Source of the DNA: a virus
Length of the DNA: 64,000 nt
Direction: 5' to 3' (one strand)
IMG/VR virus record: IMGVR_UViG_3300027759_000045
Coordinates: 1 to 64,000 of that record
Shown here: in pieces, positions 34,606 to 45,858 of the stretch
Layout of the letters: each line of letters starts with the position of its first letter
How positions within the stretch are numbered: position 1 is the stretch's first letter
Program-made: the position numbers and the translations under genes
The notes under the pieces: model-generated
Told to the model about the DNA's origin: nothing
Database searches by the model: none
The model's input: the letters and a program-made list of their open reading frames with translations, nothing else

Positions 34606-35327
34606 TGAATTTAAAAAGTTTTGGTTGCAGTTTTATCTTTGGCACGGAACTAAGTGACGATGGACAAAACAATCGATACGCCCGATACGTCCGAGACAAC
34701 GGCGTCTGGCGAGGTTGTCCTGTTGGCAGTCGACTAACATGGCCTGCACACCTGGCTACTCACCTTGGGTACAAATATCTAACTTATTCACGCCCTGGCA
34801 GCGGTAATCTGCAAATTGCAGAACGAGTGCTGTCACATTTGACCACCAATGAACAGGCATTTTTTGTGATTGGGTGGACATACATAGATCGGTTTGATTA
34901 CGTTGATGCTGCTACTTCCAATGGCTTCCCAGGTACACCATGGTCAACACTTATGCCAGTTGATACTACAGATATAGCAGCCGCATACTATAAAAACTTA
35001 CATTCTGAAATACGAGATAAACTAACAACACTTATGAGTATCCGATTGGTTATTGATGCACTTAAACAAAAAAGTTGCCCATTTATAATGACCTACATAG
35101 ATGATCTCATGTTTGATACTCAATGGAATACCTCTCCTGCAATTACAGATTTACAAGACTATATTCGTCCACACATGACCACATTCGAAGGATTAAACTT
35201 TCAGGCATGGAGCAAAAAGAATGGACACGCTATAACTGATATAGGGCATCCATTGGAATCAGCACATCGTGCCGCAGGCGAGTTAATGATCAAAGTTTTT
35301 GATACACAAAATACAATCGATCGTTAG
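34605..35327 (+). CDS. SGNH-hydrolase-like protein
   Basis: 240 residues. LKSFGCSFIFGTEL (3-16) carries a block I-like GCSF in place of GDS. LTWPAHLATHLGYKYLTYSR then PGSGNLQI is block II/III-like (G.GN), and ITDIGHPLESAHRAAGELM at the end has the His-containing block V pattern. The fold suits acyl-ester or glycan modification. It converges with the methyltransferase gene, overlapping by 38 nt. Confidence 0.55.
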   Translation: MNLKSFGCSFIFGTELSDDGQNNRYARYVRDNGVWRGCPVGSRLTWPAHLATHLGYKYLTYSRPGSGNLQIAERVLSHLTTNEQAFFVIGWTYIDRFDYVDAATSNGFPGTPWSTLMPVDTTDIAAAYYKNLHSEIRDKLTTLMSIRLVIDALKQKSCPFIMTYIDDLMFDTQWNTSPAITDLQDYIRPHMTTFEGLNFQAWSKKNGHAITDIGHPLESAHRAAGELMIKVFDTQNTIDR

Positions 35328-36015
35328 CGTCTTTCTTGAACGTTTCCAGTCGAAGATTATACTTTTCAGCAAAGTCGTTTACTACTTCAAATGTCCAGGG
35401 AAATATTTCCACATAAGGACCTGTGCGGTGTGTGATGCCTGGGTTAGCACGTAAAAAGAACTTGCCATCTGTTTTTAACAAATCTACACAATGACTGAAT
35501 CTAGCTTCAATTTCATCACGTGAGTTGAAGTTAATTGACCCCAGTGCCAAGATAACATCGTACTGATGTTTTACTCGGTACTCTAGAATGTCTACTTCAT
35601 AGTCTGCGCAGTTATTATATGGATCAATACCAACCAGATTTGTGATACGGCCTTTGAATGGATGGTATCCGCAACCAACATCTAGCACACGTTCTGGGTT
35701 CAGCTTGTTGATTTCTTCTACCAGTTCCCAGCCCGAATGTTCGTATTCGCCGGTTCTGGGTTTCCATATTTCGCCAAAGAACCGTAGTATGTAACGCTCA
35801 TTAAGATCATCCACAATACTTCTTACGGTACCTACATAATCGCAGGATAGACTTAGTTCTGCTTCCACAGCGTCCTTGAACTTGCGATAACGTGCAGGTG
35901 TCCAAGGCAGGGCCTGTACCTGAGTATCTGCATCAATTGTGATATCGGCGTACTTGGGCAGGCTAAAAGAGTCCTGCAAATTTTTGCAGATTAGGTTAAA
36001 AATTTTGGTGTTCAT
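35290..36015 (-). CDS. SAM-dependent methyltransferase
   Basis: 241 residues from the ATG at 36015. RVLDVGCGYHPFKGRITNLV then GIDP (about 109-132) is motif I and the following acidic strand; YDVILALGSINF is motif IV-like. A small-molecule or sugar target is likely. Convergent with the SGNH-like gene and divergent from the TctC gene. Confidence 0.7.
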   Translation of the reverse strand: MNTKIFNLICKNLQDSFSLPKYADITIDADTQVQALPWTPARYRKFKDAVEAELSLSCDYVGTVRSIVDDLNERYILRFFGEIWKPRTGEYEHSGWELVEEINKLNPERVLDVGCGYHPFKGRITNLVGIDPYNNCADYEVDILEYRVKHQYDVILALGSINFNSRDEIEARFSHCVDLLKTDGKFFLRANPGITHRTGPYVEIFPWTFEVVNDFAEKYNLRLETFKKDANDRLYFVYQKL

Positions 36016-36107
36016 AGAAAAATTTAATAAATAAAGTAGAATTTTTAACAAACCAGCAAATTATTTGCCAGGCGTTTAAAAATCAAGCATACTATTTAAG
36101 GAACTAT

Positions 36108-37085
36108 ATGTCAATCAAAAAATTATTTGCTGTGCTATTATTAGCACCTGCCCTGGCGTTTGCTTGGGAACCCACAAAGCCTGTCACTGTGTATATTGGT
36201 AACACACCCGGTGCTGGCAATGAAATGGCCTTTCGGAAACTGGCTGATATTGTACAAAAATCCAACCCTAAATTTGTTTATGTTGTGCAGAACATACCCG
36301 GTGCTGATAGTGTCATTGCCAACAACCGGTTTTTGGAAGTGGCCAATGATGGCTACACCATCAACTTGCCCAGCCATATGTCAAGCTATGTGACAAATGA
36401 TATCTGGGAAAAGTCGATTAAAAAGTACAACTACGACAGCTTCGTGGATGTGTTGACCATGGGCAAAAGCCCACTGGTATTAGTTGCCAGTCCTCGAAGC
36501 GGCATTAACACTCCGCAGGAGTTTGCAAAGTATATTCAATCAGGTAGAACAATCAACATTGCCATTGGTGGTGGCGCACATCGCACAGCGTTTGAATACT
36601 TGATGGACAAAGGTCGTGGCAACAAAGACACTGTAAAACCGATCAAATTCAATGGTCCAATGCCAGCAGTGACCAGTGCCGCAAGCTATGACGGCAAAAC
36701 AGGCACAGAATTTGCCATCATACCTATTGCAGTGGCCAAAGCACTAGTAGATGCTGGTAAGGTCAAACCAATTGGATTCACTGGCACACAGAAAATGTCG
36801 CAGTTTCCCACGGTTCCATTGCTTAATACAATAGCACCAGGCATCAATGTATATGCGGCCTGGTCAATTCAATTGCCGCCTGGCACAGATCGAGAAATTG
36901 TTGCCTGGTATCAACAACAATTTAGTCGTGCAGTTCGTTCAGCAGAATACAAAGAGTACACGGATGCCAATGTTATATTCTACGTGGAAGATGAATTAAC
37001 TCCTGCAGGGCTAAAGCGTCACATGGACGATTTAAGAGCTGCCTTTATTCCTGTACTGAGTCGAATTGATTTAAATAAAGAATGA
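36108..37085 (+). CDS. Tripartite tricarboxylate transporter receptor (TctC/Bug family)
   Basis: 325 residues with a clear signal peptide (MSIKKLFAVLLLAPALAFAW, cleavage after AFA). WEPTKPVTVYIGNTPGAGNE, VVQNIPGADSVIANNRFLEV and SPLVLVASPRSGINTPQEFA follow the Bug periplasmic receptor fold from start to finish, including the Pro/Gly-rich ligand-loop motif (P.G..) that contacts carboxylates. Full length, so likely functional in binding a carboxylate in the periplasm. No membrane subunits are present, so it would work with host TctA/B or as a scavenger. Its family is most abundant in Burkholderiales. Confidence 0.85.
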   Translation: MSIKKLFAVLLLAPALAFAWEPTKPVTVYIGNTPGAGNEMAFRKLADIVQKSNPKFVYVVQNIPGADSVIANNRFLEVANDGYTINLPSHMSSYVTNDIWEKSIKKYNYDSFVDVLTMGKSPLVLVASPRSGINTPQEFAKYIQSGRTINIAIGGGAHRTAFEYLMDKGRGNKDTVKPIKFNGPMPAVTSAASYDGKTGTEFAIIPIAVAKALVDAGKVKPIGFTGTQKMSQFPTVPLLNTIAPGINVYAAWSIQLPPGTDREIVAWYQQQFSRAVRSAEYKEYTDANVIFYVEDELTPAGLKRHMDDLRAAFIPVLSRIDLNKE

Positions 37086-37708
37086 AATATATCTTTGTGG
37101 CCGGTGCTCCGGGCTCAAAATGGAGCAGTGTAGTTAAAAATATCTACTACAGTCCTGACATTGATCGGTCAGACTACAGAGATGAATGGACTTATTATCA
37201 CGATGCGTCTGGCACTCGCGAACTCATGCACCTGGGTGCGTATTTTGATCCGGGCATGGCCTCTGCATTGCCCGAGGATTTGACCACACTGACTAGATCT
37301 GAATTAGAAAAAATCTTTGCTGAACCATTTAAATTCAAAGAATCTCATAGCACACGAATTATCAAAAGTCATGTGTTCTCAACGCATCTTGAGTATCTGC
37401 GAGAACAGTTTCCGGAGTCGCCCATTGTGTTGGTGCATCGCCCAGACGATGCTTGCCTGGGCTGGTGGGTCAAGTGCGGGCACTTTGACATAACATATCC
37501 CTCCTATGACATATATTATAAAAACTTAAAGACTATGGCCACGATAATTAAACAACAGAATGTGGGAATTGTCAATGCTTCATTAAAGTACCCAGGACAA
37601 CATCCGTTGACCAATCAACAGTTGGCACGAATGCTGGGTATAGCAGTACCGCCAAAGGAGTATGAACAAAGCTATGGCGCAAGCGACATAAGGGTAACAG
37701 TAATATGA
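37082..37708 (+). CDS. Sulfotransferase-like P-loop protein (1)
   Basis: 208 residues. YIFVAGAPGSKWSSVVKNIY (3-22) resembles the 5'-phosphosulfate-binding loop of sulfotransferases, and SPIVLVHRPDDACLGWW (about 117-133) the 3'-phosphate-binding segment with Arg. PAPS-dependent transfer of sulfate is inferred; the acceptor is unknown. It overlaps TctC and the 2OG gene by 4 nt each. Confidence 0.55.
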   Translation: MKYIFVAGAPGSKWSSVVKNIYYSPDIDRSDYRDEWTYYHDASGTRELMHLGAYFDPGMASALPEDLTTLTRSELEKIFAEPFKFKESHSTRIIKSHVFSTHLEYLREQFPESPIVLVHRPDDACLGWWVKCGHFDITYPSYDIYYKNLKTMATIIKQQNVGIVNASLKYPGQHPLTNQQLARMLGIAVPPKEYEQSYGASDIRVTVI

Positions 37709-38367
37709 TAACAGAAGAATTTAAAAGCAGTTGGGATTTTACCAAGAGCCGCAGTACATATCACTTTGATAGTACTGTAAAAGATGCACCGGAATCTGTG
37801 CTCACACACTTAGGGCACATTGAGCCTACTTGGCAAGCAGACATAGCAGACATTGTCAATCATTCTACACCAGCCACCTGGGAAACACGTGGCTACAAAG
37901 GAGAAGGCGTGCTGCCACCACGTGAAGATTTGCTTGCTGAAGAGTACGATGTCTCTCGTGTGGGTGCTGATCCCAAAATGATCATTACACACTTGAACTG
38001 GCAGATACCAGATTCACTGAAAGCAATTACTGCGGCATTTGGACTAGATGACTGTATGGAACGCATACACATACAACAGCCAGGCGAAGTGTGGAATCTG
38101 CACATGGACAAACTGCAAAAATGGTCGCCTGAAGATCCCAGTCGTGTGGGCCGGTACTTTGTTCAACTAACAGACTGGCAACCTGGACAGTTCTGGGAGT
38201 ACGGCAACTATCACTGGAATCAATGGTCAGCAGGAGATGTATCAACTTTTGACTGGGCAAACATACCACACAGCACTGCCAATGCTGGCCATCATCCTCG
38301 GGTGACATTTCAATTAACTGGTGTTATTACAGATCAGACTCGCCGCTTCCTAGCATCTCTACAATGA
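37705..38367 (+). CDS. 2-oxoglutarate/Fe(II) oxygenase-like protein
   Basis: 220 residues. EVWNLHMDK (HxD, about residues 130-138) and PHSTANAGHHPRVTFQLTGV near the C-terminus (distal His and Arg) fit a double-stranded beta-helix oxygenase of aspartyl-hydroxylase type. It would hydroxylate an unknown substrate. Overlaps between neighbours suggest one functional unit with the sulfotransferase-like genes. Confidence 0.6.
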   Translation: MITEEFKSSWDFTKSRSTYHFDSTVKDAPESVLTHLGHIEPTWQADIADIVNHSTPATWETRGYKGEGVLPPREDLLAEEYDVSRVGADPKMIITHLNWQIPDSLKAITAAFGLDDCMERIHIQQPGEVWNLHMDKLQKWSPEDPSRVGRYFVQLTDWQPGQFWEYGNYHWNQWSAGDVSTFDWANIPHSTANAGHHPRVTFQLTGVITDQTRRFLASLQ

Positions 38368-38588
38368 ACAAGTATCATGTTAGATTCAACACCAAGCACA
38401 ACGGCAGTGAGTTAGTGTGGCGCATCTTTGAAAATGGTCAGGAGCATCTAGCCTCTGATGTTCGCATCATTGGAGAAACCTACACCGAATGCACAAACGA
38501 ACACGGCGAAACAAAATGGAACATTGCTTGTGAAGGTCGAATGGTCTGGGTTGATCAAGTTGCTGTAATTGTCACAGACAAAGACTAA
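38364..38588 (+). CDS. Conserved phage hypothetical protein, 74 aa
   Basis: 74 residues (MNKYHVRFNTKHNGSELVWR, IFENGQEHLASDV, GETKWNIACEGRMVWVDQVA). A compact beta-rich protein recurrent in T4-like phages next to sulfotransferase-like genes. No function known. Confidence 0.6.
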   Translation: MNKYHVRFNTKHNGSELVWRIFENGQEHLASDVRIIGETYTECTNEHGETKWNIACEGRMVWVDQVAVIVTDKD

Positions 38589-38622
38589 CAATGAAAAAAC
38601 ACTTTTAAAAAGAATTGGATAG

Positions 38623-39408
38623 ATGACTAATTGGGCACTGCAATATTCCGGCGGATCTGGTGGATTTCTATTGTTACATCTTTTGTTATTGTCGGACAAG
38701 TTTTACACTGCATTTGACAGAAATATACCACTGGCCCAACTAATTCAAGAACACTGGAATATAAAATCTCCTGATCAATGGAAAAGCACTGAAATATGGC
38801 CAGATGCTCAAATCACACTAGACGCCCGGGTTGATTTTGATAAAATCTATTTTCAATGCAATCCATTTGAATACGATTACAACACTGTCTTGAAAGAATT
38901 AGTTTATAAAAAAATTGTTATCTATACAGATTACCAAAGCCAATTGTTATTAGCTCATTATAAAAAAGCAAATTGGTATATTAGTGTCCCTGGGCAAGAT
39001 TTAAAATATATTAAATTTAAAAAAGTTTTAAACAACTGGAAAGACCATTACGCCAATATAAAAGATCCATTGTGGCCAAAATGTCTCAGTGTCAGACATA
39101 TCGATCGTCTACCTGAGAATATACAAAAAGAAATATTAGCAGATCCGTATACTGAATATTTTTTAAATCTTACATATCAGGATCCTAGTGCGTATTTTAA
39201 CAATGAACTGGTGCATGAACCTATGATACCCTATTTAGAATCAGCCGATGTGGCTGTTAAATTGCAAGATTTAGTTAACAGCAATGGAAAAATTTTAGAA
39301 ACATTGTTCGACATACCTAAAATTAATAATAAACAACTGTTGTTGTTAAAAAAATGGAAACAACATCATACCAATGAGTTATTAATCAGCATAGGAATAA
39401 CCCCATAA
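38623..39408 (+). CDS. Sulfotransferase-like P-loop protein (2), AT-rich
   Basis: 261 residues. WALQYSGGSGGFLLLHLLLL (4-23) is a P-loop-like start; the remaining motifs are diverged, and membership in the sulfotransferase-like group is by N-terminal pattern only. The sequence is rich in Lys, Ile, Asn and Tyr and its DNA is clearly AT-richer than its neighbours, which suggests acquisition from another source. Confidence 0.45.
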   Translation: MTNWALQYSGGSGGFLLLHLLLLSDKFYTAFDRNIPLAQLIQEHWNIKSPDQWKSTEIWPDAQITLDARVDFDKIYFQCNPFEYDYNTVLKELVYKKIVIYTDYQSQLLLAHYKKANWYISVPGQDLKYIKFKKVLNNWKDHYANIKDPLWPKCLSVRHIDRLPENIQKEILADPYTEYFLNLTYQDPSAYFNNELVHEPMIPYLESADVAVKLQDLVNSNGKILETLFDIPKINNKQLLLLKKWKQHHTNELLISIGITP

Positions 39409-39421
39409 TACTTTTAATAAA

Positions 39422-40051
39422 ATGTCAAAAACACTTTTAATTTTAACAGGCCCACAGGGATCTGGCAATCATTTATGGAGTAAAATATTTGCACAGCACC
39501 CTGATGTGTACGGATGGCATGCACTGTTGCATGAATACTGGATAGGGCATGATCAAGAGCCCTTTGCTGAATACTGGGAAAATCCTGATTTACTCAAAGA
39601 CTTTGACTGGAGCCGCTGTGATTACTTTGTCACCAGTGTCAGCACACCTTACATGTTCAATGGTGAACGCACAGTACCCGACATTGTGCGTTTTGCTGCC
39701 ACTGCCATGGGCCTGGGTATCTGTGTAAAAATTGCTGTGATTGGACGAGATTGCAACATACTAAACTATCAACAAACTCGTGTGCGCGGCGAGCCCACTG
39801 TTGATATTGCACTTGCTGAATACAAAAAACTACGCACTTGGGATCCGGTATTTTTAAGTTATGAATTATTGCACTTGTACCGAGAAGATTACCTGCGTCA
39901 GATTGCAAAGCAGTTGGAATTCCCAATGGATTTTACGCATCCGCAGTTAACAAATATTCTAGTAGATGATACCAACAGTAAATACTTTCACCCTGTGGCG
40001 CATCATGCCACAGATGATCTAGCACAACATGCTTCAAGGCAATGGCGATAA
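39422..40051 (+). CDS. Sulfotransferase-like P-loop protein (3)
   Basis: 209 residues. LLILTGPQGSGNHLWSKIFA (4-23) is the 5'-PSB-like loop followed by HPDVYGWHALLHEYW, a pattern common to a family of phage proteins annotated as sulfotransferases. A variable middle and a short C-terminus follow. Catalytic residues cannot be verified by eye. It overlaps the next gene by 10 nt. Confidence 0.55.
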   Translation: MSKTLLILTGPQGSGNHLWSKIFAQHPDVYGWHALLHEYWIGHDQEPFAEYWENPDLLKDFDWSRCDYFVTSVSTPYMFNGERTVPDIVRFAATAMGLGICVKIAVIGRDCNILNYQQTRVRGEPTVDIALAEYKKLRTWDPVFLSYELLHLYREDYLRQIAKQLEFPMDFTHPQLTNILVDDTNSKYFHPVAHHATDDLAQHASRQWR

Positions 40052-40890
40052 TTCACCCAATTTTTCTGTCAGAATTATATTTGTCTACTTATGCTGATAC
40101 ACATTGGCACAACTCTGGTCTGGACAGTCCAGAGTTGTGTTCAAATCGTCAACATTATTTTTCATACCCGCATAAAGTTGAGTATTGTTATAATAGTCGA
40201 GGCTTCAGAGATGCAGAATGGCCTGATGATCTAGCCGATGTAATATGGTGCGTCGGCGATAGCTTCACAGTGGGACTGGGAAGTCCGCGTGAACACACAT
40301 GGCCTTATATACTACAGCAACGCTTGGGTCGGCGCACAATAAATCTCAGCCTGGATGGAGCAAGCAATAATTGGATTGCCAGGATTGGATCTGCCATCCT
40401 AGCGGAATTCCCCAATGCGGTTATTGTGACCCAATGGAGTTTCCTACACAGAAGAGAGTTATCTGTGGAAGCATCGTTAAAAAAAGGATTCCCAGAGTTT
40501 TATAAAGCAGTAGCAGATCACAGTTGGCCGCTGTGCAATAATTTAGATGATTTCAAAGAATTACCCGAATGGATAAAACAAGAAATAAAACAACTGCACA
40601 ATTGGCCAGACTGCCTGACTACTAGTGAAAAGAGACGGGCATATTATATAAATTCCACAACCGAAGAGGATGTTGTTAATACTCAATTCTGCATACAACA
40701 ACTTCAAGGCAATGTTGTGCATTCTGCTATTCCAAATTGGGCACCACCCGGAATTGATTTAAACTATGATAATATAATATTAACCAAGCAGTTGGATCGT
40801 GCTCGCGACGACTTTCATTATGACATTCTTACTAGCAATTCCTTAATAGATCAAATTATTCCAGCCTTGGCATCGAATGCCAGGTACTAA
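40042..40890 (+). CDS. SGNH/GDSL hydrolase-like protein
   Basis: 282 residues. VIWCVGDSFTVGLGSPREHT (about 69-88) contains the GDS block I with the nucleophile Ser, and NLSLDGASNNWI the block II/III Gly and Asn. The C-terminal DDFHYDILTSNSLIDQI includes a possible DxxH block V. Likely an esterase or acyltransferase acting on glycans. It converges on the minus-strand sulfotransferase gene. Confidence 0.65.
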   Translation: MAIIHPIFLSELYLSTYADTHWHNSGLDSPELCSNRQHYFSYPHKVEYCYNSRGFRDAEWPDDLADVIWCVGDSFTVGLGSPREHTWPYILQQRLGRRTINLSLDGASNNWIARIGSAILAEFPNAVIVTQWSFLHRRELSVEASLKKGFPEFYKAVADHSWPLCNNLDDFKELPEWIKQEIKQLHNWPDCLTTSEKRRAYYINSTTEEDVVNTQFCIQQLQGNVVHSAIPNWAPPGIDLNYDNIILTKQLDRARDDFHYDILTSNSLIDQIIPALASNARY

Positions 40891-41983
40891 TTTCATCCAG
40901 TGCAATTTTCTTGATATCAGCATCTGTATAAAGATTGCCTACTCCGCTTTGCTTGACCCAGTTATTGTATGCTTCTGCGCATTGATCAAAGTTGCGTATT
41001 AGTCGGCGTTTTTCCATCATGGTTTGCAATTTAATGGGAACACCTGTGACCATTATTTTATGCTGAACTAACTCATTGATTGCTTTGTAACTGTCAATAT
41101 ACTTGCCGGTATGGTGTTGTAAAAACTGTTTATCACCGGCGCTTAGACTATTGAGAATTGCATTTCTAGTCAACACAGGTGCTAGATCTACACTGTCCAG
41201 CTGGTCCGTAGAGTCGAACGTGATTTTTAAGTTGTCAGGCGCAGGCAACTGCGCACTTATACCGCTTATGTCGCTGGCAAGATAATGACATCGATTCCAG
41301 TCTTGAAATTCAATGCCAAATGTGTCATGCCAGGATTTTGTTTGTTGTCCACCAAATATATCTAAACCTAATATATACTCTTCAATTTTAAGCATGTGTG
41401 TTTCGTATTCAAAATAGGAACTTACAGTAAAATGATCATTGACCCACTGTAAATAATTAACATACTTGTTAAGATATGACAGCATTACATTTACATCAAC
41501 GGTAATTCTATTTTGATATATGCCAGCAAATGCATCGATCTTTTCTTGGTGCGTATAAACATTTAACTTTTTTGAATGTCCTTGAATACACCAACTCAGT
41601 GCGTGTTCTAGTAGATTTTTTCGTTGAGCACTGATTATAAAAAAGTTATCGTTTAGGTATTGATAAAACGGTACTTGATTGGCCAATGAATCTTGTCGAT
41701 TCACAATGTGATAATGTGCCAATCGTGCTGTCTTATAGTGATCTGTACTGTGCAAGTGTTCAATTATTTCATTGAGTGTTTGATAATATCCCCAAGGGCG
41801 GTCAGTTGGTTTACCCAGCACTTCTTGATTGAACACAGGACTGTAGTATTTCATTAGCCCGTTTGTGAGTTCATGCAAATTGATTACAGGGCGATCGTAC
41901 GTGTGCGATTGCATGTACACTGTGATCAGACGTTGCAATAGTGTGCTGCCAACTCGGTCCGGGGTTAAAATTAATACATTCAT
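40856..41983 (-). CDS. Sulfotransferase-family protein (4)
   Basis: 375 residues. VLILTPDRVGSTLLQRLITV (3-22) is a convincing 5'-phosphosulfate-binding loop (R-x-GST). FIISAQRKNLLEHALSWCIQ (about 113-132) has the Arg and following Ser of the 3'-PB motif. This is the clearest sulfotransferase here. It is transcribed divergently from the APS-kinase-like gene 23 nt away, a natural pairing of PAPS supply and use. The acceptor is unknown. Confidence 0.7.
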   Translation of the reverse strand: MNVLILTPDRVGSTLLQRLITVYMQSHTYDRPVINLHELTNGLMKYYSPVFNQEVLGKPTDRPWGYYQTLNEIIEHLHSTDHYKTARLAHYHIVNRQDSLANQVPFYQYLNDNFFIISAQRKNLLEHALSWCIQGHSKKLNVYTHQEKIDAFAGIYQNRITVDVNVMLSYLNKYVNYLQWVNDHFTVSSYFEYETHMLKIEEYILGLDIFGGQQTKSWHDTFGIEFQDWNRCHYLASDISGISAQLPAPDNLKITFDSTDQLDSVDLAPVLTRNAILNSLSAGDKQFLQHHTGKYIDSYKAINELVQHKIMVTGVPIKLQTMMEKRRLIRNFDQCAEAYNNWVKQSGVGNLYTDADIKKIALDEISTWHSMPRLE

Positions 41984-41995
41984 GCAATTACTTAG

Positions 41996-42001
41996 TAAAT
42001 A
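41996..42001 (+). promoter_or_regulatory. Late promoter-like TAAATA box 5 nt before an ATG
   Basis: AGTAAATA with 5 nt to the ATG at 42007; T4-type geometry would start the mRNA at this ATG. No Shine-Dalgarno sequence lies between. Confidence 0.4.
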
Positions 42002-42006
42002 GCACT

Positions 42007-42801
42007 ATGACACAACGTATTTTAATCATGGGCTTACCAGGAGCCGGCAAAACATATCTGGCACAACACATTGTAGATCACTTACAAGCAGAAAAGAAAC
42101 GGGTAGGTTGGCTCAACGCTGACGATGTACGTAAAAAGTACAACGACTGGGACTTTAGCGAAGCAGGCCGTATTCGACAAAGTCTACGTATGAGAGAACT
42201 GGCAGACACAATGGCCGATGTTGATTATGTGATCTGCGACTTTGTTGCTCCATTGGTTGAGATGCGCAACAACTTCAAAGCAGACTGGACTGTGTGGGTT
42301 GATACCATTGACAAAGGTAGATACGAAGACACTAACCGGGCATTTGTTCCTCCTGAACAGTATGATTTTAGAATCACAGAACAGCACAGTGAGAAATGGG
42401 GCGAGTTTATTGCCGCGCATATCTTAGACAACCGTCGTAGACCGGTGTTTGACTGGCAAAAGGAAACTGTTGAACAACTTGGCAGATGGCAACCTTGGCA
42501 TGCAGGTCACCGTGCGTTGTTTGACAGACTGATACAAAAAACAGGGCAAGTATGCATTATGATTCGTGATTGTCAAGGATGGCAAGGTTCAAATCCATTT
42601 GCAATTGATCAGGTCAAAAACGCTATCAAACGAGATTTAGACATGATGTATCAAGGTCAATACGAAATACTGGTAGTTCCTAATATTACTCATATTGGAT
42701 ACGGTCGCGGAGTAGGCTACACAATGGCAGAAGAAAAATTCGACGAATCTATTACAAACATATCCGGGACAGAGATCCGCAAAAGCCTGGGATTAAAGTA
42801 A
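42007..42801 (+). CDS. Bifunctional APS kinase-like / HxGH nucleotidyltransferase (PAPS synthase-like)
   Basis: 264 residues. The N-terminal domain has Walker A GLPGAGKT (9-16) and LNADDVRKKYNDWDFSEAGR (36-55), the APS-kinase (CysC) pattern. The C-terminal domain has PWHAGH (H165-H168) and ISGTEIR (252-258), the HxGH and ISGTxIR motifs of ATP sulfurylase and NMN adenylyltransferases. Read together they suggest a short PAPS-synthase-like protein: sulfate to APS to PAPS. The second domain is much shorter than real ATP sulfurylase, so an NMNAT-like activity is the alternative. It sits in a cluster with four sulfotransferase-like genes. Confidence 0.65.
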   Translation: MTQRILIMGLPGAGKTYLAQHIVDHLQAEKKRVGWLNADDVRKKYNDWDFSEAGRIRQSLRMRELADTMADVDYVICDFVAPLVEMRNNFKADWTVWVDTIDKGRYEDTNRAFVPPEQYDFRITEQHSEKWGEFIAAHILDNRRRPVFDWQKETVEQLGRWQPWHAGHRALFDRLIQKTGQVCIMIRDCQGWQGSNPFAIDQVKNAIKRDLDMMYQGQYEILVVPNITHIGYGRGVGYTMAEEKFDESITNISGTEIRKSLGLK

Positions 42802-44795: not shown

Positions 44796-44915
44796 ATGTT
44801 AGAAACACTATTTTGGTTGGCATTAGGAGCATTTGTTGGATGGAATTTTCCGCAACCAGACTTTGCAAAACGCATACAGGCCCGCGTCATGGCCGCATTT
44901 CGAAAGGATCAATAA
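44796..44915 (+). CDS. Tiny membrane protein, 39 aa
   Basis: 39 residues, too short for normal listing. MLETLFWLALGAFVGWNFPQ is one hydrophobic helix, then a basic tail (KRIQARVMAAFRKDQ). Preceded by TAGGAGC; followed after 1 nt by the carbonic anhydrase gene. Possibly a small lysis modulator; function unknown. Confidence 0.55.
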   Translation: MLETLFWLALGAFVGWNFPQPDFAKRIQARVMAAFRKDQ

Positions 44916-44916
44916 A

Positions 44917-45858
44917 ATGACAAAGACAAATTTTTTAGCAACAATTATTTTGGCCTTGGCACCCGTGGTGTCCATGAGTCAAAGTCAAACACCAATTAAT
45001 ATCACAGCAGTTACTCCACAAGGCAGTCCTGCTCAGTTTACCAATTATAGTGGTCTGAATGCTACATTTACTTTTCAAACACAAAACACATTGAATAGTC
45101 CATTTTGTAATACCGGTGCAGGCGATATTTGTACCTTGCCAACTGCAACGGCCGGGGTGAATGCATATCCCATTGCCAACACTCGCTGGGGAACATATAA
45201 ACTTAATAACCCCAATGCAGGTTCATGTGCGCCTGGCATTATGTTTGGCGGTGCTCAATACTGCTTGCTAGAGTTTCACTTTCATGGACCTGCAGAACAC
45301 TGGGTCAACAACTCAGTAACTGATTTAGAAGTACACTTTGTCTATTTTAAACTGGCTGATTTTACAGGTCCTTATGGATTGTGTAATGCAGACAGTTTGT
45401 TGGTGTTGGGTCAGCGCATGGTTGGTAATGGCAATACAGCAAACGCAGCCTGGACCACGGTGTTCAATGCAATACCGGCTGCCAATGCCAGCGGCGCAAA
45501 TTCTGGACAGACCGTGAGTTTCAACATTGCAAGCATGATGGGCATGGCCAACTTTAACACAGCACCAAGCTATAGATACAGCGGTGGATTGACTGCACCA
45601 ATTTCAATTGGTACATTAGGCGCCAACAGTACTTGTGTAGCAACTACTAACCCTGCCAATGGTCGTCCATGGTGGGGCAATCCACAACGTCAACTGACTC
45701 AACAAGCATACCCACAAATTGTTTCTTGGGTGTTGTTTAGACAACCAATACAGTTGTCTGTAGCACAGGTAGCACAATTTAAAACTGTGTTCCCTGATGG
45801 CAATGCTCGTGCTGTACAACCACAAGGTTCTACTGTTTATTTTGCCAATCCAAATTGA
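44917..45858 (+). CDS. Alpha-class carbonic anhydrase with signal peptide
   Basis: 313 residues from the ATG at 44917 (an in-frame upstream extension overlaps the small gene). NFLATIILALAPVVSMS is a signal peptide. QTPINI, LLEFHFHGPAEHW and LEVHFVYF are the family signatures; zinc ligands are H121, H123 and H140. VSWVLFRQPIQLSVAQVAQF and NARAVQP match the C-terminal motifs. It reversibly hydrates CO2 in the periplasm. Three Cys in the first half and one near residue 241 could form disulfides. It lies in the late lysis block, so expression is probably late. Confidence 0.85.
   Translation: MTKTNFLATIILALAPVVSMSQSQTPINITAVTPQGSPAQFTNYSGLNATFTFQTQNTLNSPFCNTGAGDICTLPTATAGVNAYPIANTRWGTYKLNNPNAGSCAPGIMFGGAQYCLLEFHFHGPAEHWVNNSVTDLEVHFVYFKLADFTGPYGLCNADSLLVLGQRMVGNGNTANAAWTTVFNAIPAANASGANSGQTVSFNIASMMGMANFNTAPSYRYSGGLTAPISIGTLGANSTCVATTNPANGRPWWGNPQRQLTQQAYPQIVSWVLFRQPIQLSVAQVAQFKTVFPDGNARAVQPQGSTVYFANPN

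Follow-up and report, generated by a model that had tools for sequence, protein, structure and literature searches.

Two kinds of sulfate-handling gene have been described in phages, separately from one another. Proteins of the Sulfotransfer_3 family are encoded by OM43 phages, cyanophages and glacier phages (PMC10580990; PMC8290583); the function of the phage sulfotransferases is called unclear (PMC10580990) or they are listed as auxiliary metabolic genes (PMC8290583). Viral cysC, the gene for an adenosine 5'-phosphosulfate (APS) kinase, has also been reported, and is routinely assigned to assimilatory sulfate reduction (PMC11053968; PMC9611531; PMC9789665). Our literature search found no paper linking viral cysC with phage sulfotransferases or describing an enzyme of the type reported here, and a combined search on 3'-phosphoadenosine 5'-phosphosulfate (PAPS) synthase, bacteriophage and sulfation also returned none. 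Thus an earlier note on the DNA studied here, which took sulfation by a phage to be new, holds for the connection and not for its separate parts. Here we analyse bases 1-64000 (the window) of the 346,856-bp virus record IMGVR_UViG_3300027759_000045, a giant freshwater phage, and focus on a gene at 42007-42801 that we call K, together with its relatives. On balance, sequence, structural models and comparative gene context lead us to favour K as a compact PAPS-forming enzyme that feeds phage sulfotransferases.

All of the open reading frames (ORFs) discussed in the earlier note are present in the window. The K frame was listed from a GTG at 41941, but its relatives begin at codon 23, an ATG at 42007, and K is therefore most likely 42007..42801 on the plus strand, encoding 264 aa; with this start, 23 nt separate K from the divergent ORF 40856-41983, as the earlier note has it. 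As had been noted, one polypeptide joins an APS-kinase-like domain (approximately aa 1-140) to a short HxGH nucleotidyltransferase domain (approximately aa 150-264). The kinase domain matches PF01583 (APS_kinase) above the cut-off (1.5e-11), the full length of K matches the phage family PHROG 10255, annotated 'kinase' (3.7e-45), and the best PDB match of a 41-sequence K profile is an APS kinase (2e-16). In a Foldseek search with the AlphaFold (AF2) model of K (predicted local distance difference test (pLDDT) 88, predicted template modelling score (pTM) 0.69), the top hits were APS kinases (7yq1, PAPSS1; probability 1.00), of which the 7yq1 structure contains APS and an ATP analogue; among viral proteins, the closest fold is that of the APS kinase from Ralstonia phage RSL1 (B2ZYE1). 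The P-loop residues and D39, R42, F50, R55 and R61 are invariant in the 41 K homologs, and these five residues align with the DGDxxR...F...R region of APS kinases, the classical DGD reading NAD in K. From general knowledge of APS kinases together with the profile alignments, we take D39, R42, F50 and R55 to be the APS site. By family and predicted fold, then, assignment of the kinase half of K as an APS kinase is well supported.

The second domain is of a different character. It spans only about 110 aa and carries GRWQPWHAGH, with the HxGH signature, and ISGTEIR, an ISxTxIR motif. A 62-sequence profile of this domain, drawn from phages and bacteria, keeps GRxQPxHxGH, NPF, PNI, GRxVGY and ISATxIR, as well as an Arg after the second strand; of these, GRxQPxHxGH, GRxVGY and ISATxIR vary hardly at all across SAR11 and phages. 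Similarity to nicotinamide mononucleotide adenylyltransferases (NMNATs) covers the first two thirds of the domain and ends before GRxVGY; the segment between NPF and ISxTxIR, which contains the invariant GRxVGY, aligns to no NMNAT. Neither PF01747 nor CysN/CysD matched the domain above cut-off, PF01747 occurs nowhere in the window record, and no canonical ATP sulfurylase was detected in 16 related phage records that include the window phage. The domain is thus, by its sequence, an NMNAT-type transferase with an altered substrate segment. There are strong grounds to propose a sulfurylase role for it, in which GRxVGY might be a sulfate-binding segment analogous to the GRD motif of ATP sulfurylase. 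The earlier note's 'PAPS synthase-like' label therefore fits the APS-kinase half and fails for the ATP-sulfurylase half, and we rejected K as a classical PAPS synthase since it lacks ATP-sulfurylase homology. The same note had named an NMNAT-only C-terminal domain, combined with a lack of PAPS-binding pockets in the transferases, as what would count against its proposal; the first of these is what the sequence indicates.

The strongest candidate for a sulfotransferase in the window is the gene divergent from K (40856..41983, minus strand, 375 aa). Its AF2 model is confident (pLDDT 90.5, pTM 0.90) and its best PDB fold is the Stf0 sulfotransferase 1tex (E 9.6e-4, probability 1.00), at modest TM-scores of 0.32/0.46; a heparan 3-O-sulfotransferase and estrogen sulfotransferase are also among the top ten folds. 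No Pfam or PDB profile of any sulfotransferase family matched the protein. Among its 13 homologs, a TPDxxGS loop (T7, P8, D9, G12, S13) and R121, N123, E126 and S130 are invariant, and the loop, R121 and S130 are the predicted PAPS-binding elements. A second P-loop protein, with an APGSKWS loop (37082..37708, plus strand), is sulfotransferase-like at a sub-threshold level, matching Sulfotransfer_3 at 3.8e-4 and 21.2 bits against a cut-off of 27, and has at least 264 viral relatives. The two remaining candidates, both on the plus strand, have no Pfam match. The protein at 39422..40051 (GPQGSGNH motif), possibly sulfotransferase-like, aligns by hhalign (84%) to a phage Sulfotransfer_3 profile over the P-loop region only, and the P-loop-like protein at 38623..39408 (SGGSGGF motif), for which three viral relatives were found, matched no sulfotransferase or other profile in Pfam or by hhalign. 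Of the four sulfotransferases proposed earlier, then, the Stf0-like protein stands by its fold and the 37082 protein stays below threshold; four proven sulfotransferases is a count that we rejected for two and leave open for one. Across the profile searches that the earlier note proposed, APS_kinase was found, ATP sulfurylase was not, and Sulfotransfer appeared only below threshold, in 37082-37708.

These genes recur together in other phages. The recurring cassette comprises a methyltransferase, a TctC-like receptor, a sulfotransferase-like protein, an oxygenase, K, a P-loop protein, an SGNH hydrolase and the Stf0-like protein. When loci were seeded on the 37082 gene, 79 of the 80 had the oxygenase, 72 had TctC and 69 the methyltransferase; K occurred in 37, and in 28 of the 43 loci of at least 12 kb. 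K was also present in 19/19 loci seeded on 39422, and in 9/10 seeded on the Stf0-like gene, where SGNH, 37082 and the oxygenase each occurred in 10/10. Inheritance of the cassette genes together, at approximately 35-90% identity, speaks for a functional set, and the recurrence of the whole set, together with at least 587 viral relatives of K, argues that it is not a chance arrangement. The close relatives of the window phage are IMG/VR phage contigs of up to several hundred kb; a megablast of 50,697 phage records returned nothing resembling the window.

Beyond the cassette, K lies near recognised sulfotransferases in other phages. L-numbers denote the individual phage or bacterial loci compared. 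Pfam-verified Sulfotransfer_3 genes lie near K in phage loci L234, L224, L210, L241, L247, L063 and L079, a Sulfotransfer_2 gene in L213, and a Sulfotransfer_3/Stf0 match in L025; a profile of ten K-adjoining phage sulfotransferases is closest to protein-tyrosine sulfotransferases (1.6e-12). We compared 150 gene families located at most three genes from K, with the window phage left out, to 150 families five to nine genes away. In the near set, four families match Sulfotransfer_3, two Sulfotransfer_4 and two Stf0; among the matches listed for the far set, no sulfotransferase family was matched by two or more. Over whole records, K also lies closer to Sulfotransfer_3 than uniform placement predicts (combined Fisher p 4.4e-4). 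Both tests measure closeness to K within phages that carry K.

K is found in cells as well. A profile search detected it in bacteria; a bacterial search seeded on a single Sanovirus K gave no match. In Bradyrhizobium, two TPR-Sulfotransfer_3 genes lie directly upstream of K (L304) or one directly downstream (L313), and in Rhizobium sp. BK376 (L297) a Sulfotransfer_2 domain and K form one open frame. In SAR11, a group of ocean bacteria, K sits in the locus of the sulfur-oxidation genes aprBA, which encode APS reductase (L279, L281, L315-L317, L321), and the AprBA assignments are above cut-off (TIGR02060 4.2e-56, TIGR02061 2.8e-300). The two halves of SAR11 K are fused in L279 and encoded by separate kinase and transferase genes in L315. 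In both loci (L315:7998-12810, L279:7998-13639), K lies between metC-like/MFS genes and aprBA with a presumed aprM. When split SAR11 genes were joined before alignment, phage and bacterial K interleaved in the tree, and supported branches forced at least four changes, so K has moved repeatedly between cells and phages.

The aprBA context in SAR11, the Rhizobium sulfotransferase fusion and the repeated sulfotransferase neighbours favour a role for K in sulfate activation. In the mechanism that we propose, the NMNAT-type domain probably adenylylates sulfate to APS, in place of a classical ATP-sulfurylase domain, or else K takes host APS as its input; the N-terminal domain would then phosphorylate APS to PAPS. 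This PAPS would be the donor for the phage's own sulfotransferases: for the Stf0-like protein at a minimum, and probably for the 37082 protein as well. Two products of co-inherited genes, the oxygenase and the SGNH hydrolase, may make the acceptor ready for sulfate, for instance through hydroxylation or deacylation, and the acceptor itself is most likely a glycan or lipid of the host envelope, or a virion glycan. The earlier proposal of PAPS formation and sulfation by the phage thus keeps its APS-kinase half and its sulfotransferase link, through family, fold and gene context, and loses the PAPS synthase name. A more ambitious version, which we put forward tentatively as plausible, is that, beside Sat and CysDN, the C-terminal domain of K represents a third class of sulfate adenylyltransferase, one derived from NMNAT. 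SAR11 would use it together with AprBA, as a substitute for ATP sulfurylase, and phages would have captured it on several occasions, gaining in a single gene a PAPS synthase for the sulfation of surfaces during infection.

Several observations weigh against sulfate activation for sulfation. The best PDB profile matches of the second domain are NMNATs (1.4e-10), and Pfam and PDB profile searches detected no ATP-sulfurylase homology in it. At many K loci, those of Stenotrophomonas phages DLP6 and Bhz60 among them, no sulfotransferase was recognised in the vicinity, and whole-record Sulfotransfer_3 matches above cut-off were tallied in only 6/29 and 6/50 records. The sulfotransferase-K fusion was seen in one genome only, and a search of that family found no other case. 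In SAR11, K is also found in betaine/dimethylsulfoniopropionate (DMSP)-type loci. Finally, of the six SAR11 genomes with aprBA beside K, one has a match to ATP sulfurylase and none to PAPS_reduct/CysD, a pattern that speaks for sulfate activation by K, but most SAR11 genomes are incomplete single-cell assemblies, so these gene absences are weak evidence and suggestive only.

The alternative that survives best would link only the kinase half of K to sulfate: K would convert host APS to PAPS, while its transferase half activated another small molecule, perhaps a phospho-alcohol or the phosphate of a sugar, for the same glycan or lipid pathway. The NMNAT/cytidylyltransferase-like character of the second domain fits this well, as does the company that K keeps, since it often neighbours a second, RfaE-type nucleotidyltransferase, glycosyltransferases and epimerases, and some SAR11 copies lie beside gmhA and glycosyltransferases. 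Yet the two-domain pairing is kept even as split genes beside aprBA, which is simplest if both domains use APS, and GRxQPxHxGH, GRxVGY and ISATxIR are near-invariant from SAR11 to phages, whatever the neighbouring pathway. We therefore judge a separate substrate for the second domain to be rather unlikely.

Alternatively, the window genes could form a variable surface-modification island whose P-loop proteins lack sulfotransferase activity. Convincing profile matches are missing for three of the four P-loop families, and neither the 37082 nor the 39422 family shows an evident counterpart of the Ser in the classical 3'-phosphate motif. Against this, the fourth protein has the Stf0 fold and conserves the expected Arg/Ser spacing, and the cassette genes travel with K, so we give little credence to an island devoid of sulfotransferase activity.

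It seems more doubtful still that K is a NadR-type enzyme of NAD salvage or nucleotide metabolism, combining an NMN adenylyltransferase with a kinase and having no connection to sulfur. The PDB sequences nearest to its second domain are indeed NMNATs, and in Sanovirus K overlaps a gene for a NADAR-domain protein; however, the NMNAT similarity stops short of the invariant GRxVGY, the kinase is an APS kinase by sequence and fold, and K is linked to sulfotransferases and aprBA. Least probable of all, despite the customary reading of viral cysC, is that K is an ordinary cysC auxiliary gene boosting host sulfate assimilation into cysteine, because the commonest neighbour clusters and Pfam families listed near K include sulfotransferases but neither PAPS reductase nor any further gene of assimilation, and the SAR11 aprBA carriers have no PAPS_reduct/CysD match.

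The remaining cassette genes of the window are less securely assigned. At the cassette edge lies a methyltransferase-like gene, presumptively S-adenosylmethionine-dependent (35290..36051, minus strand; Methyltransf_23 0.0021, below cut-off), and the four genes described next are all on the plus strand. The TctC-like periplasmic receptor (36108..37085), with a probable signal peptide, matches PF03401 above cut-off (4.7e-19). The candidate 2-oxoglutarate (2OG)-Fe(II) oxygenase (37705..38367) has Asp/Asn-hydroxylase-like motifs with conserved H/D/H and R; no Pfam or PDB profile matched it, and the motifs by themselves do not confirm the 2OG oxygenase that had been called here. A 74-aa protein (38364..38588) is also encoded directly after K in six other phage loci. 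The SGNH/GDSL hydrolase-like protein (40042..40890) matches Lipase_GDSL_2 at 4.6e-5, below cut-off, which lends the earlier SGNH assignment weak support. From TctC, the first in the run, through 37082 and 37705 to 38364, successive genes overlap by 4 bp, consistent with a single operon. Further along, the window encodes an alpha (eukaryotic-type) carbonic anhydrase (44833-45858; PF00194 1.6e-15) with a probable signal peptide, which among 80 K loci examined was found elsewhere only in the near-identical contig L001.

Other surroundings of K also recur. In approximately 12 loci (L180:4381-5984 and similar), a tandem Stf0-like pair lies immediately upstream of K, followed by a peroxiredoxin gene; one gene of the pair matches Sulphotransf at 0.0011, below cut-off. 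In many freshwater phages (L029, L031, L055, L070 and others), K lies among FolE-, QueD- and QueE-like genes of the 7-deazaguanine pathway and an RfaE-type nucleotidyltransferase. A small DUF2061 (PF09834) membrane protein is encoded directly downstream of K in approximately 40 phage loci from two K branches (for example L070:8803-9009, L230:3282-3485 and G000:77297-77446). We considered DUF2061 as a sulfur-linked marker and dropped it; the available portions of the literature on this family concern iron regulation or resistance, and we do not count it as evidence. In SAR11, a split K adjoins dimethylglycine-dehydrogenase-like, DddP-like and HalD-like genes (L327:3729-9631), surroundings that suggest a role with a sulfated or sulfonium osmolyte.

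Taken together, the cassette is a recurrent phage gene set built around a compact and unorthodox enzyme, shared with SAR11 and rhizobia, that probably forms PAPS, and its interest grows outside the window, with the recurrence of the cassette and of K beyond a single phage. If this is true, a widespread 'cysC' or 'kinase' gene of freshwater viromes would be the donor-making half of phage-directed sulfation, rather than a helper of assimilation, and a K-type enzyme would explain how APS is handled in SAR11 that have AprBA but no detectable ATP sulfurylase.

How does this locus compare with the known systems? Like the bifunctional PAPS synthases (PAPSS1/2, Aquifex Sat-APSK, CysNC), K places an APS kinase and a nucleotide-handling partner for sulfate activation in one polypeptide, but it has only 264 aa, its kinase lid region looks shortened, and its partner is a transferase of about 110 aa that is NMNAT-type, without ATP-sulfurylase homology, and is not CysN. 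With CysC (PF01583) and viral cysC it shares family, fold and most substrate-site residues; unlike them, it is fused to a nucleotidyltransferase, or in SAR11 also paired with one, and is tied to sulfotransferases or aprBA instead of assimilation. NMN adenylyltransferase and NadR share GRxQPxHxGH and ISxTxIR with the second domain of K, which is shorter, carries GRxVGY and is partnered by a kinase belonging to the APS-kinase family. The 40856-41983 protein has the fold, P-loop and 3'-phosphate Arg/Ser spacing of Stf0 (1tex), but exceeds it by approximately 120-130 aa, has an additional helical part at its C terminus, and is too divergent for Pfam. Finally, whereas the available text on the phage Sulfotransfer_3 proteins describes no PAPS-generating partner gene (PMC10580990; PMC8290583), the sulfotransferase-like genes of this cassette travel with one that may be such a partner.

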